Of a stretch of 64,000 nt of DNA, positions 35,333 through 43,197 are shown in pieces. The stretch comes from Pseudomonas tohonis (GTDB lineage Bacteria; Pseudomonadota; Gammaproteobacteria; Pseudomonadales; Pseudomonadaceae), in the NCBI RefSeq assembly GCF_012767755.2, contig NZ_AP023189.1, positions 1,860,001 to 1,924,000 on the forward strand, read 5' to 3'. Each line of letters opens with the position of its first letter. The stretch's first letter is position 1. Below the pieces are notes generated by a model. It made no database searches. It saw nothing but the letters and a program-made list of their open reading frames with translations, and was not told the origin of the DNA. A program made the translations under genes and the position numbers.

Positions 35333-35773
35333 GTTACTCAAAGGAATATCCCTTCGGTCTCTGAGGCGTAAATGGCCTGTTCCCTGGCATTTCTTTCTTG
35401 ACGGGGTGAGCGAGGTATGAGTGCGCAAGCGCTATAGGTGTGGTTTTGAGTGACAAATCGAGCCACCTTGTAGGACAAAATCGGACGATTCGTAAGATTT
35501 GATCAGTGGATGATCAGTCACTCGTTTGAATTTAATCTGTCCCTTCGTTCAGAAAAATATAACGACCCATAAACGTGCACTTGGCACCATGGTTGCACGT
35601 CTCGACGCCGTCCCAGGCCCTCCAGTCCCGCAAGAATTGCTGAAGGCCGCGGTTCAGACGCGTTGGTGCTTCCGCCCACGCCAGAAGAAAGGTCGCACGA
35701 GCGGCTGAACAGCGTCCCTGCCAGACGGGGCCGTAATAACAAATGAATGATCTGTCCACGGAGTAAAGTCTCG
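35333..35773. promoter_or_regulatory. 440-base control region of the DUF1302 gene
   Basis: No supported gene. TGATCAGT is repeated at 35500-35507 and 35511-35518, 11 bases apart (one helical turn), which looks like an operator. An inverted repeat ACGTGCA/TGCACGT (35573-35579, 35594-35600) lies 14 bases apart further down. Possible weak -35 sequences exist but no convincing sigma-70 pair. A 60-codon frame (35526-35708) has no ribosome site or recognisable protein. GGAG at 35760 is the ribosome site of the next gene. Confidence 0.5.
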
Positions 35774-37741
35774 ATGGAACTCAAGTCCCGCAAGCCCCAG
35801 TTGCGCTTCGCTCCGGCCAAGGCCGGCTACGCCCTCGCCGGTCTCCTGCCCCTGATGTGCGCCGTCCAGGCCCAGGCGGTCGAATTCAGCTTCGCCGACG
35901 ACGAGATCAGCGGTTCCATCGACACCACCGTCTCCTACGGCCAACTGTGGCGCGTCCAGGGCCAGGACAAGACCAACAACGACATCAACACCAACGACGG
36001 CAACCGTAACTTCGACACCGGCCTGGTTTCCGAGGTGTACAAGATCACGTCCGACCTGGAAGCGACCTACAAGAACTACGGTGTGTTCGTCCGCGGCACC
36101 GCTTTCTATGACACCCAGATCATGGACAAGCGCAACGATTACTACGACAACAACACCCCCGTTCAGCCGAGCCAGAGCTATCCGAACGACGACCGCTTCA
36201 CTCACGAGACCCGTCACAAGGCCGGTCGCGATGCGCAGATCCTCGACGCCTATGTCTATGGCAACTGGGATATTGCCAACATGCCGCTTAGTGCGCGCCT
36301 TGGTAAGCAGGTCTTCAACTGGGGTGAGGGTATCTTCTATCGTGGCGGTATCAACACCACTAACCCGCTGAATGCCGCCCAGTTCCGCCTGCCGGGCTCC
36401 GAGCTGAAAGAGGTACTGGTTCCGGTCGAGGCCCTGAGCTTCAACCTTGGCCTGACTGACAACCTGTCGATGGAAACCTTCTATCAGTTCAACTGGAAAG
36501 AAAGTGCCATCGACCCGGCCGGTACCTACTTCTCCGAGACCGACCTGTTTGCAGATGGCGGTAATACTGCTTACAACCAGAGTGGGTCGTTGGCAGGGCT
36601 TATGACGCCGAACCCGCTGCTCGGCGGCAACTCGCTCTATGGCCTGCTGTCCTCTAACCCGGCAACAGGTCTCCGTGGTAGTGAATTCGCCAACACGAGT
36701 GCCTTTAAAGTCGCTTCCATTGGTCCGGATATCAATGCCAAGAACGACGGGCAGTTCGGCGTCAACTTCAAGTACATAGCTGAAGAGCTGAACTCGACGG
36801 AGTTTGGTGCCTACTTCATCAACTATCACTCCAAAGAGCCCTATATCTACGCTGATGTGAACAGCGCATACAGCGGTATCAGCGCTGGCCAGTATGGTGC
36901 TCTGCTCGGTAATGCTGCCGTGGCTGGCGCTGCTGCTGCTGCCGGCACCTCTGCACAGCAGATCGTCGGTGGGCTGCTGGCTGTTGATCTGGGGAACCAG
37001 ATTCAGGCTCGCCGCGAGTATGTCGAAGACATCCGTGTATACGGTTTCAGCTTCAACACCACCATCAACGAGACTTCTGTATTCGGTGAGATCGCCTATC
37101 GCCCGAACATGCCGATCGGCATCGCTGCGACCAACGATGCACTTCAGCAATTCCTCGGTCAGGCCACTCAGTTCTCGCTGGGGCAGGGCATCAACGTTGC
37201 GGGGCAGAACGTACGTCTGGGCGGCCAACTGCATAACTACGAGCGTGTAGAGTCCTTCAATACCTCGTGGGGCGCTATCCAGAATTTCGGTCCTTCGCTG
37301 GGCTTCGACTCTCTGATCGGTGTGGCCGAACTGGCGTCTGAACACCTCCGTGGTAGCGATCTTAAGTACACCGACTACCAAGGCAACGTACGCTACTACG
37401 CAGGTCGTGGTAACGGTGCTTACGCGAGCAATTACGGCCGTGATGACCAAGTCAACAAGAACTCCTACGGCTACACCCTGGTGCTGTCCGGTACCTGGAA
37501 CGACGTGTATGCCGGTGTGAACCTGTCTCCGTTCGTGGTCTACAAGGACGACTTCGAAGGTAACTCTCACCAGACCGGCAACTTCATCGAAGGCCGCAAG
37601 GCCTACACCGTCGGCCTCAAGGCGAGCTACCTGAACAGCCTGGAAGGCGAGATCCAGTACACCGAGTTCTATGGCGCCGGCCAGAACAACTCCAGCCGCG
37701 ATCGCGACAATATCGGCGTCAACGTCAAGTACTCCTTCTAA
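35774..37741 (+). CDS. DUF1302 outer-membrane-type protein (RND cluster)
   Basis: 655 residues from ATG 35774 (GGAG upstream; the extra in-frame ATG 35747 lacks a site). Signal peptide ends around AQA-VEF (~36). The rest is rich in alternating polar/aromatic strands such as SIDTTVSYGQLWRV, FNWGEGIFYRGGINTTNP and a C-terminal strand ending in Phe (NIGVNVKYSF), typical of outer-membrane beta-barrels and of the DUF1302 family. The role is unknown; it is repeatedly found with DUF1329, YCF48 and MmpL-type RND genes. The central part (about 36250-37480) uses more A/T-ending codons (GGT, GCT, TCT, AGT) than the ends. Confidence 0.9.
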   Translation: MELKSRKPQLRFAPAKAGYALAGLLPLMCAVQAQAVEFSFADDEISGSIDTTVSYGQLWRVQGQDKTNNDINTNDGNRNFDTGLVSEVYKITSDLEATYKNYGVFVRGTAFYDTQIMDKRNDYYDNNTPVQPSQSYPNDDRFTHETRHKAGRDAQILDAYVYGNWDIANMPLSARLGKQVFNWGEGIFYRGGINTTNPLNAAQFRLPGSELKEVLVPVEALSFNLGLTDNLSMETFYQFNWKESAIDPAGTYFSETDLFADGGNTAYNQSGSLAGLMTPNPLLGGNSLYGLLSSNPATGLRGSEFANTSAFKVASIGPDINAKNDGQFGVNFKYIAEELNSTEFGAYFINYHSKEPYIYADVNSAYSGISAGQYGALLGNAAVAGAAAAAGTSAQQIVGGLLAVDLGNQIQARREYVEDIRVYGFSFNTTINETSVFGEIAYRPNMPIGIAATNDALQQFLGQATQFSLGQGINVAGQNVRLGGQLHNYERVESFNTSWGAIQNFGPSLGFDSLIGVAELASEHLRGSDLKYTDYQGNVRYYAGRGNGAYASNYGRDDQVNKNSYGYTLVLSGTWNDVYAGVNLSPFVVYKDDFEGNSHQTGNFIEGRKAYTVGLKASYLNSLEGEIQYTEFYGAGQNNSSRDRDNIGVNVKYSF

Positions 37742-37752
37742 CTAGAAAGAAT

Positions 37753-37774
37753 GCGGGCACCTGCGGGTGCCCGC
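37753..37774 (+). other. Stem-loop between DUF1302 and DUF1329 genes
   Basis: GCGGGCACC/GGTGCCCGC, perfect 9-bp stem with loop TGCG and no T-run. It lies 11 bases after the DUF1302 stop, so it probably protects or attenuates the upstream mRNA rather than ending it. Confidence 0.55.
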
Positions 37775-37799
37775 CGCTGAACCCTCACGGAGAACCAAC

Positions 37800-39167
37800 A
37801 TGCTGAAAAAGCTTTCGCTGGTTGGCGCGGCAGTCGCTTTTGCACTGTCCGCCGGTAGCGCACTGGCCGCGGTGTCGGCTCAGGAAGCCGCCAAACTGGG
37901 CACTAGCCTGACGCCCTTCGGTGCCGAGAAGGCCGGCAACGCCGCCGGCACCATCCCGGCCTGGACCGGTGGCATCACCCAGGCTCCGGCCGGCTACAAG
38001 CCGGGCCAGCACCATGTCGATCCGTTCCCGGAAGACAAGCCGCTGTACACCATCACCAAGGCGAACCTGGACCAGTACAAGGCCAATCTGACCCCGGGTC
38101 AGATCGCCCTGTTCAACGCCTACCCGACCACCTTCCAGATGCCGGTCTACCCGACCCGCCGCTCCGGTTCCGCGCCGCAGTGGGTGTATGACAACACCAT
38201 CAAGAACGCCACCACCGCCAAGCTGCTGGACGGCGGCAACGGTTTCGCCGACGCCTACGGCGGCATCCCGTTCCCGATCCCGCAGAACGGCGTAGAGGCG
38301 CTGTGGAACCACATCGTCCGCTACCGCGGTTCCTACATCGTGCGTCGCGCCTCCGAAGTGGCCGTGCAGCGCAATGGCGACTACTCCCTGGTCACCTCGC
38401 AGCAGGAAGCCCTGTTCAAGTACTACAACCCGAAAGGTTCGTACGCCGACCTGAACAACATCCTGTTCTACTACCTGTCCTTCACCAAGAGCCCGGCCCG
38501 TCTGGCCGGTGGCGCCGTGCTGGTGCACGAGACCCTGGACCAGGTGAAGGAACCGCGTCAGGCCTGGGGCTACAACGCCGGCCAGCGTCGCGTACGCCGT
38601 GCGCCGAACCTGGCCTACGACACCCCGATCGCCGCCGCCGACGGCCTGCGTACCGCCGACGACACCGACATGTTCAACGGTGCTCCGGATCGCTACGACT
38701 GGAAACTGGTGGGCAAGAAGGAAATCTACATCCCGTACAACAACTACAAGGTCTCCAGCCCTGAAGTTAAGTACAAGGACCTGCTGCAGCCCGGCCACCT
38801 GAACCCGGCCGTCACCCGCAACGAACTGCACCGCGTGTGGGTCGTCGAGGGCACGCTGAAGTCCGGTGCCCGCCACATCTACTCCAAGCGCACCCTGTTC
38901 CTCGACGAGGACAGCTGGCAAGCCGCCGTGGTCGACCAGTACGACGGTCGTGGCGAGCTGTGGCGTGTATCGATGGCCTACCTGAAGAACTACTACGACC
39001 TGCCGACCACCTGGTCCGCACTGGACGTGTTCCATGACCTTCAGGCCCGTCGCTACCACGTGCAGAACCTGGACAACGAAGAGCCGACCACCATCGACTT
39101 CACCCAGGCTGTTCCGGACGACGGCTACTTCAAGCCTTCGGCACTGCGTCGCCGCGGTACCCGATAA
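37800..39167 (+). CDS. DUF1329 protein, LolB-like periplasmic/outer-membrane partner (RND cluster)
   Basis: 455 residues from ATG 37800, with ACGGAG upstream. Signal peptide MLKKLSLVGAAVAFALSAGSALAA. DUF1329 hallmarks are KLGTSLTPFGAEKAGNAAGTIPAWTGG near the N-terminus (split over ~33-58), QRRVRRAPNLAYDTP and WRVSMAYLKNYYDLP. Databases often name the family outer-membrane lipoprotein-sorting protein because of a LolA/LolB-like fold, so it may bind a lipid or sterol-like ligand; that is inference. It shares a transcript with the DUF1302 gene; a terminator follows. Confidence 0.9.
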   Translation: MLKKLSLVGAAVAFALSAGSALAAVSAQEAAKLGTSLTPFGAEKAGNAAGTIPAWTGGITQAPAGYKPGQHHVDPFPEDKPLYTITKANLDQYKANLTPGQIALFNAYPTTFQMPVYPTRRSGSAPQWVYDNTIKNATTAKLLDGGNGFADAYGGIPFPIPQNGVEALWNHIVRYRGSYIVRRASEVAVQRNGDYSLVTSQQEALFKYYNPKGSYADLNNILFYYLSFTKSPARLAGGAVLVHETLDQVKEPRQAWGYNAGQRRVRRAPNLAYDTPIAAADGLRTADDTDMFNGAPDRYDWKLVGKKEIYIPYNNYKVSSPEVKYKDLLQPGHLNPAVTRNELHRVWVVEGTLKSGARHIYSKRTLFLDEDSWQAAVVDQYDGRGELWRVSMAYLKNYYDLPTTWSALDVFHDLQARRYHVQNLDNEEPTTIDFTQAVPDDGYFKPSALRRRGTR

Positions 39168-39185
39168 ACGCCTTGTAGCCTGACG

Positions 39186-39216
39186 AAAAGGCCGCTACAA
39201 ACGTAGCGGCCTTTTT
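39186..39216 (+). terminator. Terminator after the DUF1329 gene
   Basis: 12-bp perfect stem (39187-39198 with 39203-39214), loop AAAC, T-run TTTTT. It separates DUF1302/DUF1329 from the YCF48/RND pair. Confidence 0.9.
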
Positions 39217-39284
39217 GCTATCAGGGCCCCTGATAAGGCCTCAATCACGCGGGTTTGCCTTAACAAAACATAACGTCCAGCCGA

Positions 39285-39314
39285 TTGTCATGGCTTTCCA
39301 AAGCTGGATAGCAT
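39285..39314 (+). promoter_or_regulatory. Possible sigma-70 promoter for the YCF48/RND pair
   Basis: TTGTCA (39285-39290), 18-base spacer, TAGCAT (39309-39314). One long spacer and a weak -10 make this tentative; it lies in the 151-base gap after the terminator. Confidence 0.35.
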
Positions 39315-39367
39315 AGGCGGCCTGCCAAAAGGCAAGGTCCACCTATAACAATAAGGGGGAAAGGTGT

Positions 39368-40453
39368 ATGAGTGAGCCCGTCCTGCGGCGCACCCAGTCC
39401 GGTCATGACGTGCAGTCCCTTGCGCAACCGGCGTTCCGCTTCCACTCGCCGCTGGCCAAAGCGCTCTCGCTGTTCAGTGTGCTCTCCGTCCTGACTCTCG
39501 GCGCCGCGCCCATCGCGCAAGCTGCCGAATCAGCACCCGTGTTCTCCATCGAATCGCCCAAGGCGGCCAGCAGCCTGCTGCTGGATATCGCCCATGCCGG
39601 CAAGCGCCTCGTCGCCGTCGGCGACCGTGGGCACATCCTCTATTCCGATGACGACGGCAAGACCTGGACCCAGGCCAAGGTGCCGACCCGCCAGATGCTG
39701 ACCGCCGTCTACTTCGTCGACGACAAGAAGGGCTGGGCCGTCGGCCATGACGCACAGATCCTCGCCAGCGAGGACGGTGGCGCCACCTGGACCCAGCAGT
39801 TCGAGGACCTGGAGCGTGAGGCTCCGCTGCTCGACGTCTGGTTCAAGGATGCCAGCACCGGCTTCGCCGTCGGCTCCTACGGCGCCCTGCTGACCACCGA
39901 GGACGGTGGCAAGAACTGGGAAGACGTCAGCGACCGCCTGGACAACGAAGACCAGTACCACATCAACGCCATCACGGCGGTGAAGGACTCCGGCCTGTTC
40001 ATCGTCGGTGAGATGGGCAGCATGTTCCGCTCGCCCGACTGGGGCCAGACCTGGGAGCGCCTCGAGGGCCCCTACGAGGGTTCCCTGTTCGGCGCCACCG
40101 GCACCAACGAGCCGGGCGTGGTCGTGGCCTATGGCCTGCGTGGGCACCTGTTCCGCTCCGCCGACTTCGGCAAGACCTGGGAAACCATCGCACTCAAGAA
40201 TGCCCGTGGCGGCACCCTGGAGTTCGGTCTTTCCGGCGGCACCCTGCTCGATGACGGCACCCTGCTGGTGGTCGGCCATGGTGGCAGCGTCCTGAAGAGC
40301 ACCGATGCCGGTCGCACCTTCAGCGTGGTCAACCGTTCCGATCGCCTGTCGCTGGCCAGCGCCACCGCAGATACCAAAGGCAACCTGATCCTGGTGGGAC
40401 AGGGCGGAGCGCGTGTCGCCTCGCCGACTGGCGCCGAGCTGGGCCAACAATAA
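39368..40453 (+). CDS. YCF48/BNR-repeat beta-propeller exported protein (RND cluster)
   Basis: 361 residues from ATG 39368, preceded by GGGGGAAAGG. A long signal sequence (~25-52, ALSLFSVLSVLTLGAAPIAQAAE) sends it out of the cytoplasm. Six Asp-box-like repeats are visible: DDGKTW, EDGGATW, EDGGKNW, DWGQTW, DFGKTW and DAGRTF, so it is a beta-propeller like YCF48, the photosystem II assembly factor. In non-photosynthetic bacteria such proteins sit beside MmpL-type RND genes, as here (18 bases before). It probably acts as a periplasmic adaptor or substrate chaperone; no enzyme activity is expected. Confidence 0.88.
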   Translation: MSEPVLRRTQSGHDVQSLAQPAFRFHSPLAKALSLFSVLSVLTLGAAPIAQAAESAPVFSIESPKAASSLLLDIAHAGKRLVAVGDRGHILYSDDDGKTWTQAKVPTRQMLTAVYFVDDKKGWAVGHDAQILASEDGGATWTQQFEDLEREAPLLDVWFKDASTGFAVGSYGALLTTEDGGKNWEDVSDRLDNEDQYHINAITAVKDSGLFIVGEMGSMFRSPDWGQTWERLEGPYEGSLFGATGTNEPGVVVAYGLRGHLFRSADFGKTWETIALKNARGGTLEFGLSGGTLLDDGTLLVVGHGGSVLKSTDAGRTFSVVNRSDRLSLASATADTKGNLILVGQGGARVASPTGAELGQQ

Positions 40454-40471
40454 CAAGCCGGGGGAGTTTCG

Positions 40472-42847
40472 ATGAGTAACCATCACCAGGACAAGGCGAC
40501 CTTCCTGGAACGCCTGATCTTCAACAACCGGCCGGCCGTGATCGTCATCTGCCTGCTGGTCAGCATCTTCCTCTTCTGGCAGGCCACCCAGGTGCGTCCG
40601 TCCACCAGCTTCGAGAAGATGATCCCGCTGCACCACCCCTTCATCCAGAAGATGATGGAGCACCGCAACGACCTGGCGAACCTGGGCAACACCGTGCGTA
40701 TCTCGGTGGAAGCCAAGGACGGGGACATCTTCAGCAAGGAGTACATGGACACCCTGCGTCAGATCCACGACGAGGTGTTCTACATTCCCGGCGTCGACCG
40801 TTCCGGCCTGAAGTCCCTGTGGAGCCCCAGCGTGCGCTGGACCGAGGTCACCGAGGAAGGCTTCGCCGGCGGCGAGGTGATCCCGCAGACCTACGACGGT
40901 TCCGACGACAGCCTCGACGAGCTGCGCAACAACGTGCTCAAGTCCGGGCAGATCGGCCGCCTGGTGGCCAACAACTTCAAGTCCAGCATCGTCGATGTGC
41001 CGCTGCTCGAGTCCTACCCGGACCCGAACGACCAGGGCAAGCTGCTCAAGCTCGACTACCGCCAGTTCTCCCATGAACTGGAAGCCAAGATTCGCGACAA
41101 GTACCAGGCCCAGAACCCCAACGTTCAGGTCCACATCGTCGGCTTCGCCAAGAAGGTCGGTGACCTGATCGACGGCCTGATCATGGTCGTGGCCTTCTTC
41201 GGCATCGCCTTCCTCACCACCCTGGTGCTGCTGTACTGGTTCACCTGGTGTATCCGCAGCACCATCGCCGTGCTCTCCACCACCCTGGTGGCGGTGATCT
41301 GGCAGTTGGGCCTGATGCACTCGGTGGGCTTCGGTCTCGACCCCTACTCGATGCTGGTGCCCTTCCTGATCTTCGCCATCGGCATCTCCCACGGGGTGCA
41401 GAAGATCAACGGCATCGCCCTGCAATCGAGCGATGCGGACAACGCCCTGACGGCCGCGCGGCGTACCTTCCGCCAGCTGTTCCTGCCGGGCATGATCGCC
41501 ATCCTGGCCGACGCCGTGGGCTTCATCACCCTGCTGATCATCGACATCGGCGTGATCCGCGAGCTGGCCATCGGCGCCTCCATCGGCGTGGCGGTGATCG
41601 TGTTCACCAACCTGATCCTGCTGCCGGTCGCCATCTCCTATGTCGGCATCAGCAAGAAGGCCATCGAGCGCAGCAAGAAGGACGCGACCCGCGAACACCC
41701 GTTCTGGCGCCTGCTGTCCAACTTCGCCCATCCGGTCGTTGCCCCGATCTCCGTGGTCGTCGCCCTGGCCGCCTTCGGTGGCGGCCTCTGGTACGGCCAG
41801 AACCTGAAGATCGGCGACCTCGACCAGGGCGCGCCGGAACTGCGTCCCGACTCGCGCTACAACAAGGACAACAACTTCATCATCAGCAACTACTCCACCA
41901 GCTCCGACGTGCTCGTGGTGATGGTCAAGACCGCGCCGGAAGGCTGCTCCACGCACGAAGCGCTGGCGCCGATCGACGAGCTGATGTGGACGATGGAAAA
42001 CACCCAGGGCGTGCAATCCGCCATCTCGATGGTCACCGTGTCCAAGCAGGTGATCAAGGGGATGAACGAGGGCAACCTGAAGTGGGAAACCCTGTCGCGC
42101 AACCAGGACGTGCTGAACAACTCCATCAGCCGTGCCGATGGCCTGTACAACACCGACTGCTCCCTGGCGCCGGTGCTGGTGTTCCTCAACGACCACAAGG
42201 CCGAGACCCTGCAGCGCGCGGTCAAGGCGGTCGAGGGCTTCGCCAAGGAACACAACAAGGAAGGGCTGGAGTTCATGCTCGCCGCCGGTAACGCCGGCAT
42301 CGAAGCGGCCACCAACGAGGTGATCGCCCAGTCCGAGCTGACCATCCTGATCCTGGTCTACATCTGCGTGGCGGTGATGTGCCTGATCACCTTCCGCTCC
42401 ATCGCAGCGACCATCTGCATCGTGCTGCCGCTGATCCTCACCTCGGTGCTGGGCAACGCGCTGATGGCCTTCCTCGGCATCGGAGTGAAAGTGGCGACGC
42501 TGCCGGTCGTGGCGTTGGGCGTGGGTATCGGTGTCGACTACGGCATCTACATCTACAGCCGCCTGGAAAGCTTCCTGCGTGCCGGCCTGCCGCTGCAGGA
42601 GGCGTACTACCAGACGCTGAAGTCCACCGGCAAGGCGGTGCTCTTCACCGGCCTGTGCCTGGCCATCGGCGTGGCGACCTGGATGTTCTCGGCGATCAAG
42701 TTCCAGGCCGACATGGGCCTGATGCTGACCTTCATGTTCATCGTCAACATGTTCGGTGCGCTCTGGCTGCTGCCTGCCCTGGCACGCTTCCTGATCCGCC
42801 CCGAGAAGCTGGCGGGCAAGACCGGCGGCTCGCTGCTGGCCCACTAA
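40472..42847 (+). CDS. MmpL/HpnN-type RND transporter (RND cluster)
   Basis: 791 residues from ATG 40472 (GGGGGAG upstream). Twelve-helix topology: helix 1 at ~21-37, a periplasmic loop, a first block of five helices (~235-400), a second loop (~430-625) and a second block (~630-775). The GVGIGVDYGIYIYSR segment (~683-697) matches the helix-10 region of MmpL/HpnN exporters, whose members move lipids, hopanoids or hydrophobic compounds. It lacks the AcrB-type adaptor/OMF partner genes. The YCF48 gene is directly upstream and a terminator follows. Substrate unknown. Confidence 0.9.
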   Translation: MSNHHQDKATFLERLIFNNRPAVIVICLLVSIFLFWQATQVRPSTSFEKMIPLHHPFIQKMMEHRNDLANLGNTVRISVEAKDGDIFSKEYMDTLRQIHDEVFYIPGVDRSGLKSLWSPSVRWTEVTEEGFAGGEVIPQTYDGSDDSLDELRNNVLKSGQIGRLVANNFKSSIVDVPLLESYPDPNDQGKLLKLDYRQFSHELEAKIRDKYQAQNPNVQVHIVGFAKKVGDLIDGLIMVVAFFGIAFLTTLVLLYWFTWCIRSTIAVLSTTLVAVIWQLGLMHSVGFGLDPYSMLVPFLIFAIGISHGVQKINGIALQSSDADNALTAARRTFRQLFLPGMIAILADAVGFITLLIIDIGVIRELAIGASIGVAVIVFTNLILLPVAISYVGISKKAIERSKKDATREHPFWRLLSNFAHPVVAPISVVVALAAFGGGLWYGQNLKIGDLDQGAPELRPDSRYNKDNNFIISNYSTSSDVLVVMVKTAPEGCSTHEALAPIDELMWTMENTQGVQSAISMVTVSKQVIKGMNEGNLKWETLSRNQDVLNNSISRADGLYNTDCSLAPVLVFLNDHKAETLQRAVKAVEGFAKEHNKEGLEFMLAAGNAGIEAATNEVIAQSELTILILVYICVAVMCLITFRSIAATICIVLPLILTSVLGNALMAFLGIGVKVATLPVVALGVGIGVDYGIYIYSRLESFLRAGLPLQEAYYQTLKSTGKAVLFTGLCLAIGVATWMFSAIKFQADMGLMLTFMFIVNMFGALWLLPALARFLIRPEKLAGKTGGSLLAH

Positions 42848-42864
42848 GCCTCAAGGCAATGAAG

Positions 42865-42892
42865 AAACCGCGGCCCAGGCCGCGGTTTTTTT
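42865..42892 (+). terminator. Terminator of the RND gene
   Basis: AAACCGCGGCC (42865-42875) pairs with GGCCGCGGTTT (42878-42888), loop region CCCAGG when the tightest pairs open, followed by TTTTTTT. Confidence 0.85.
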
Positions 42893-43197
42893 ATGGGCGA
42901 TCAACTACCCGCAACTCACGCGCACAAACCTGTAGGGGCGACTTCAGTCGCCTAGCAACTCAATGGGTGGCCACCCTAAAGCCTGTGCACCTGGCACCGT
43001 AGAGACCACATCTGGGGCGTTGGTGGGTCGGGTGCAACCCGACAGGGTTCGGCAGGAGGCTCCAGCGGGTTCCATCCGCCTTACACCGCAAGCACGTCCT
43101 CACCCTGTAGCCCGAACTTCATTCCTGGGGCGGCCACGCCTTTCCCGCGTTGACGCACGGGCCGCGAAGCCGCACCCGGGTTCTGGTCGGGTGCGGA
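42893..43197. repeat. Intergenic region with REP-like and other dispersed repeat remnants
   Basis: 305 bases without a supported gene between convergent RND and BatD genes. A REP-like unit GTAGGGGCGACTTCAGTCGCC lies at 42932-42952. GTCGGGTGCAACCCGAC (43027-43043) is a hairpin of a dispersed Pseudomonas repeat type. CCGCACCCG/CGGGTGCGG (43170-43178, 43188-43196) sits directly after the BatD stop on the minus strand but without a T-run. Confidence 0.6.

Follow-up and report, generated by a model that had tools for sequence, protein, structure and literature searches.

The four genes examined here, which lie within a 64-kb stretch of DNA (the window) of a 6.83-Mb, single-contig host genome, probably encode an envelope transporter of the AmeABCD type for hydrophobic molecules that is built as a hub with spokes, with import as the slightly favoured direction. 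The hub would consist of YCF48 and the RND pump in the inner membrane, where the propeller would sit on the periplasmic side of the pump. The spokes would be DUF1302 outer-membrane barrels, each accompanied by a DUF1329 LolA-like carrier that ferries ligand over the periplasm, and one hub would work both with the adjoining pair and with pairs elsewhere in the genome. Along the import path, the barrel would admit the substrate, the carrier would collect it, and the pump would deliver it to the inner membrane to be activated as acyl-CoA. The four-gene set itself is not new and has already been partly tested in the literature. Our analysis suggests an addition at the level of architecture, namely an inner-membrane pump common to many separate outer-membrane gates.

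All four genes are encoded on the + strand, 3' of a pepN gene identified by TIGR02414. Pfam searches recovered, in unchanged order, the four families named in a preliminary description made from the sequence alone:

35774..37741, + strand: DUF1302 protein, predicted outer-membrane beta-barrel (PF06980, 533.8 bits, E 8.4e-160)
37800..39167, + strand: DUF1329 protein, putative LolA-like periplasmic carrier (PF07044, 554.9 bits, E 1.3e-166)
39368..40453, + strand: YCF48-type beta-propeller, exported, partner of the pump (YCF48/PSII_BNR PF14870, 99.2 bits, E 3.4e-28)
40472..42847, + strand: HAE3/MMPL-type RND pump, putatively of the AmeD type (MMPL PF03176, 98.3 bits, E 5.3e-28)

The DUF1302 reading frame spans 35747-37741; position 35774, the start given in the preliminary description, was kept as the likely one, and an in-frame start at 35747 is also possible. 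An aromatic C-terminus is customary in outer-membrane beta-barrels, and this protein ends in ...KYSF. The barrel nature of DUF1302 was taken from PMC6394551 and PMC10866462. The DUF1329 frame likely starts at the ATG at 37800, and its product had been called LolB-like; that label was dropped, as the weak second Pfam match is LolA_like instead (PF17131, 30.3 bits against a cut-off of 30). We infer that DUF1329 is a soluble ligand carrier. Signals had been proposed for the first three proteins; by hydropathy analysis, DUF1329 and YCF48 each have a hydrophobic stretch at the N-terminus that resembles a signal, but none exceeded the cut-off in DUF1302, where a signal is plausible by eye only. In the pump, 13 partly overlapping hydrophobic segments are compatible with RND topology but do not amount to the count of 12 helices given earlier. 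A Metapseudomonas otitidis protein shares 97% identity with this DUF1329, and the pump shares 99% with one from the record titled Pseudomonas alcaligenes MRY13-0052. Neither DUF1302 nor DUF1329 had a PHROGs match or a convincing relative among solved structures. No membrane-fusion protein or TolC-type channel was found among the four genes or the three flanking frames (pepN, a BatA-like frame, and one unassigned frame).

Three hairpins accompany these genes:

37753..37774, + strand: hairpin between DUF1302 and DUF1329, without a T-run on this strand (-21.4 kcal/mol, z -4.6)
39184..39217, + strand: terminator-like hairpin closing the barrel-carrier unit (-25.9 kcal/mol, z -7.2)
42859..42894, + strand: terminator-like hairpin closing the propeller-pump unit (-25.6 kcal/mol, z -5.9)

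In folding, the hairpins 3' of DUF1329 and of the pump are both perfect and each carries a U-run. Therefore, the barrel-carrier and propeller-pump genes probably form two separate units, which supports the two transcription units of the preliminary description. The core motif of the 39184-39217 hairpin occurs once in the window. A simple scanner reported neither terminator-like hairpin, and a promoter scan was uninformative (one site against a mean of 1.9 in shuffles). The hairpin at 37753-37774 is perhaps an mRNA-stability element, and could make the levels of barrel and carrier differ.

The pump probably belongs to the wider family of HAE3-like proteins, its best NCBIfam match being TIGR00921 HAE3 at 148 bits, below the cut-off of 351.9. 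It scored 70.2 against a cut-off of 751.85 for HpnN (TIGR03480), 24 against 1100 for the second HpnN model (NF052374), and 26.2 against 1400 for BstA; membership among the HpnN hopanoid or BstA sterol transporters was rejected on these scores, which lie far under the NCBIfam cut-offs. Conserved residues were counted in 112 pump sequences, many of them close relatives. In TM10, Asp689 is conserved in each of the 111 sequences that have a residue there, and Ser306 and His307 in TM4 are each present in 111 of the 112, the exception (L113) being a broken frame. MmpL5 and MmpL4, in both halves, show Asp-Tyr when aligned to TM10 of the pump, and HpnN aligns Asp-Phe at the place of the TM4 Ser-His (weak alignment, E 0.07). 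The pump may be driven by protons via the TM4 His and the TM10 Asp. A disulphide may link Cys492 and Cys563, two residues of the second periplasmic loop that are each found in 111 of the 112 sequences and missing from the distant L060.

Across genomes, carrier and pump are phyletically coupled, almost perfectly. In a survey of 199 Pseudomonadota (cut-offs of >150 bits for DUF1329, E <= 1e-60 for the pump, and E <= 1e-40 for DUF1302), DUF1329 was found in 26 genomes; the next lower score was 54.9 bits, and a further 38 genomes, all of whose matches were weaker, were not counted. The pump was found in exactly the 26 genomes with DUF1329. DUF1302 occurred in 27 genomes, comprising 25 of the 26 (not G169) together with G069 and G117. 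Among 276 genomes of the class, the pump was found in 42, DUF1329 in 47, and DUF1302 in 43, and DUF1329 was present in all 42 pump genomes and all 43 DUF1302 genomes. In 119 Pseudomonadaceae, the pump and DUF1329 occur in the same 96 genomes and are both missing from the other 23. Fisher tests gave P values of 4e-33, 2e-44, and 5e-25 in the three surveys, although related genomes and partly overlapping samples mean that these are not true probabilities. The preliminary idea that the parts belong together is borne out by this co-occurrence, which is the opposite of an independent scatter of the families.

Five genomes of the 276-genome survey have DUF1329 without a detected pump. In G361, YCF48 is present and the pump is cut by the contig end; in G349, the contig stops at DUF1329; and G450 holds a partial pump-like match (31%). 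In the other two, G326 and G420, which belong to one genus, a DUF1302-DUF1329 pair was present and no pump was found on contigs of 7.4 and 6.8 kb. Conversely, DUF1329 and the pump occur without a DUF1302 recognised by the model in G169, G295, G368, G395, and G408. In each of the three that were inspected (G169, G368, and G395), in which pump and carrier are distant ones, the carrier has as neighbour an open frame of 542-567 aa whose last residue is Phe, so that these genomes may also be four-part. These frames, which take the place of DUF1302 (L159:5636-7300, L160:7520-9148, and L161:9420-11123), are perhaps a diverged or a different barrel. DUF1302 stands alone, with neither DUF1329 nor pump, in G069 and G117 (L157:6681-8474 and L158:5829-7634).

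Gene order was compared at 80 named pump loci, the best 80 of at least 584 confirmed candidates, a choice that makes the set lean to Pseudomonas and its kin; some of the contigs end early. YCF48 immediately precedes the pump at 79 of these best 80 loci. All four genes are together at 13 of them. Thus, the complete four-gene path of the preliminary description does exist, but as one arrangement among several, and a self-contained four-gene machine was rejected as a general rule. In the fetched flanks of the same best 80 loci, pepN occurs with both DUF genes at 8, with DUF1329 at 10, and with neither DUF gene at 28, plus L114; both DUF genes without pepN were found at 5, DUF1329 without pepN at 6, and neither pepN nor the DUF genes at 22. 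Overall, the hub lies beside pepN at 47 of the best 80. Hub-only loci, with no DUF1302 or DUF1329 in the flanks, number 51, at least 8 of which have less than 2 kb of upstream sequence, so that absence of the pair is uninformative there. Examples of a hub without the pair come from P. putida (L066) and P. fluorescens (L086). In Halopseudomonas laoshanensis (L114:8001-14126), the order is pump, YCF48, pump, the first pump having no upstream YCF48 and one YCF48 being recognised.

The near-invariant unit is YCF48-RND, and barrel-carrier pairs have multiplied elsewhere in the genome. In the DUF1329 tree, the pepN-linked copies form one clade with 100/100 support (18 of 34 rows), which spans Pseudomonadaceae and relatives in Marinobacteraceae, Hahellaceae, and Oceanospirillaceae and includes the copy at 2.50 Mb of the host genome. 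The simplest reading would be an ancestral locus pepN-(DUF1302)-DUF1329-YCF48-RND, with later loss of the pair, but not of the hub, in some lineages.

The host genome holds 9 DUF1302, 10 DUF1329, and 2 YCF48 genes and 2 AmeD-type pumps; three further pump matches (E 1.6e-7 to 1e-4) sit in longer, RND-sized frames. Its second pump, 50% identical to the first, belongs to a complete four-gene set at 1.10 Mb (L032:8899-15715), which has a lower GC3, an IS66 transposase about 2-3 kb away, and an adjoining sensor-kinase frame, and was probably acquired by transfer. Outside the window, there are seven DUF1302-DUF1329 pairs without a pump of their own and one lone DUF1329 at 0.55 Mb (L035:8325-9668), which has no DUF1302 or pump nearby and forms the longest branch of the DUF1329 tree. 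Over the 96 Pseudomonadaceae genomes, with the best candidates scored in each (up to 8 for the pump and up to 15 for DUF1329), totals reached at least 272 pumps and at least 691 DUF1329; within these limits, DUF1329 outnumbers the pump in 95 of the 96. The two copy numbers have a rank correlation of 0.80, and 35 of the 36 one-pump genomes hold 2-9 DUF1329.

Such numbers could also arise if each pump were limited to its adjoining pair, with the pump-less pairs autonomous or served by other pumps and the genomic coupling reflecting a shared lifestyle. The complete sets at 13 of the best 80 loci and in five of six plasmid regions agree with this explanation, as do G326 and G420 with their pair and no detected pump. 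We nevertheless consider it unlikely, because nearly every one-pump genome has at least two DUF1329, hub-only loci are common even with the short upstream sequences in mind, and a pair and a hub of P. putida share a phenotype despite distant locus numbers (PMC10866462). A hub shared with unlinked pairs accounts better for the excess of carriers over pumps, the YCF48-pump linkage at nearly all of the best 80 loci, the probably separate units in the window, and the requirement for the unlinked PP_0765/0766 and PP_2018/2019 on Tween 20 in the same study. We infer that the unlinked pairs use this hub. The pairs without a detected pump and the genomes with DUF1302 alone count against the model.

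Twenty chosen neighbours were scanned over eight regions, and acyl-CoA or esterase-type genes were found near five of the seven pump-less pairs (fetched 19 kb, chosen neighbours):

Pair at 6.65 Mb: acyl-CoA dehydrogenase as neighbour
Pair at 5.57 Mb: acyl-CoA ligase and thiolase as neighbours
Pair at 3.12 Mb: acyl-CoA synthetase adjoining the pair
Pair at 3.90 Mb: thiolase, beta-lactamase-family protein, and ligase about 6 kb off
Pair at 6.74 Mb: alpha/beta hydrolase as neighbour

No acyl-CoA or esterase-type gene was found among the scanned neighbours of the pairs at 5.52 and 2.50 Mb. Pseudomonas genomes are rich in acyl-CoA-type genes. MalT-type LuxR regulators follow three of the pairs. Near the hub, an acyl-CoA-ligase match was found at 6 of the best 80 loci among at least 584 candidates; at the three of these that were examined (L078, L138, and L143), the match is a long-chain acyl-CoA ligase, accompanied on the same strand by a thiolase or acyl-CoA-dehydrogenase-like gene. 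Five of the six plasmid regions carry the full set in the order of the window, several beside catabolic genes, and in one of the five the propeller is annotated only as hypothetical. The sixth, which begins at the first base of its record, has YCF48-RND followed by an acyl-CoA dehydrogenase, with DUF1329 about 20 kb off across the record start.

A housekeeping role, in which the system exports one of the cell's own lipids to the outer membrane, as HpnN does with hopanoids, and a weakened envelope accounts for the growth defects on oily substrates, appears very unlikely. The weak matches of the pump to HpnN and BstA, the LolA-like carrier, and the stable place of the hub beside pepN (47 of the best 80 of at least 584 loci) would suit such a role. 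However, the HpnN and BstA scores are far under their cut-offs, complete sets occur on plasmids, several beside catabolic genes, and 23 of the 119 Pseudomonadaceae lack both carrier and pump. Many pairs with differing neighbour regulators also point to a variety of substrates from outside more than to a single lipid of the cell.

The strongest competitor of import is a tetrapartite exporter, in which the pump clears toxic hydrophobics from the inner membrane and the carrier and barrel pass them out; the pairs would then sit with catabolic genes because the substrates are toxic. We regard this as a real possibility, though not a probable one. The kinship of the pump to HAE3 speaks for it, and the RND lipid transporters of known role that it resembles are exporters. 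In tripartite export, many pumps often share a single outer channel (TolC); one pump with many barrels is the reverse of that pattern. In the TonB system, one energiser serves many outer-membrane receptors, an economy that the arrangement of one inner engine with many outer gates resembles more than it does TolC. Tween 20 is not known as an obvious toxicant for Pseudomonas, which also counts against export.

Published work leaves room for both directions. AmeABCD of Castellaniella defragrans, described in 2018, comprises the same four families in the same order and was proposed by its authors to be a monoterpene exporter (PMC6394551). With apolar monoterpenes alone, growth of the deletion mutant was poor; with acetate, it grew like the wild type up to 5 mM limonene and less well above, and under CCCP its uptake of Nile Red was slightly higher (PMC6394551). 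The reduced tolerance above 5 mM and the Nile Red uptake favour export. By contrast, mutant and wild type hardly differed in the efflux kinetics of Nile Red (PMC6394551), and normal growth with acetate up to 5 mM limonene combined with poor growth on limonene alone fits poor supply equally well. In P. putida, PP_0765/0766 (DUF1302/DUF1329) and PP_2018/2019, a periplasmic protein and an efflux transporter, are all required for Tween 20 use and show co-fitness; co-folding was strong for PP_2018-PP_2019 and weak for PP_0766 with PP_2019 and with PP_0765, and the four were proposed in 2024 as a novel transport system (PMC10866462). Aromatic regulons include the four genes, for which coping with toxic aromatics was suggested (PMC6449761), a further point for export.

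Other reports place the genes in hydrocarbon and aromatic metabolism. In a benzene degrader, DUF1329, YCF48-related, and MMPL proteins are highly expressed from a cluster, the direction being left open, and the same paper cites a Delftia DUF1329 mutant impaired in growth on phenanthrene (PMC13101534). A crude-oil P. aeruginosa has consecutive "glycosyl hydrolase", RND, DUF1302, and DUF1329 genes (PMC7145413), and a phenol-hydroxylase cluster holds a DUF1302-DUF1329 pair (PMC7012976). The protein list of Delftia outer-membrane-vesicle structures includes DUF1302 and DUF1329 (PMC3110197), and in the MPAO1 proteome a fatty acid-CoA ligase, DUF1302, and DUF1329 with near-neighbouring locus tags co-vary (PMC7603352). 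The earlier statement that none of these families has a settled role is fair, but the system had already been studied in Castellaniella, in P. putida, and in aromatic regulons. In searches of open-licence PMC papers, a hub-and-spoke arrangement was not found described; PMC10866462 comes closest.

We agree with the preliminary description that the direction is open, and lean slightly towards import owing to the TonB-like economy, the catabolic neighbours, and the growth defects on the substrate as carbon source. Against this stand the preference of the AmeABCD authors for export, the two of seven pairs without an acyl-CoA or esterase-type gene among the scanned neighbours, and the scarcity of ligases near the hub (6 of the best 80 of at least 584). 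More speculatively, YCF48-RND might be a general energiser of hydrophobic-nutrient import over the Gram-negative envelope, in which one pump powers many DUF1302 receptors via DUF1329 shuttles, a bacterial counterpart of NPC2-NPC1 with the economy of TonB, in which a His(TM4)-Asp(TM10) relay replaces the acidic pairs of lipid exporters; we hold this broader proposal to be rather doubtful. The model would bear on the route by which long-chain and polycyclic hydrophobic substrates, once past the outer membrane, traverse the periplasm. If it is true, many unexplained DUF1302 and DUF1329 genes in oil, terpene, and aromatic degraders gain one testable function, one hub deletion should abolish growth on several substrates together, and the RND superfamily gains an import-directed branch.

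Among known systems, NPC2-NPC1, in which a soluble lipid carrier feeds an RND-fold protein, and TonB with its receptors offer a works-like analogy only. HpnN, BstA, and MmpL share with the pump the common RND fold, judged by sequence, and the TM10 Asp-Tyr; the window's pump differs from them in its YCF48 partner and in scores far below the cut-offs, and from HpnN in having Ser-His rather than Asp-Phe in TM4 (weak alignment). The P. putida system has the same DUF1302, DUF1329, periplasmic protein, and pump (PP_0765/PP_0766 and PP_2018/PP_2019; PMC10866462). The pair adjoins the hub in the window, whereas that of P. putida lies elsewhere; in P. putida strain 31800 (L066), the order is pepN-YCF48-RND and the pump is 89% identical to that of the window. 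PP_2017 is presumably pepN. AmeABCD is the closest counterpart in composition, sharing the four families (DUF1302, DUF1329, COG4447/YCF48, and HAE3 RND), their order, and the association with hydrophobic substrates (PMC6394551). It lies in a monoterpene island, whereas the set in the window forms two putative units beside pepN, in a genome that has many more barrel-carrier pairs than pumps.
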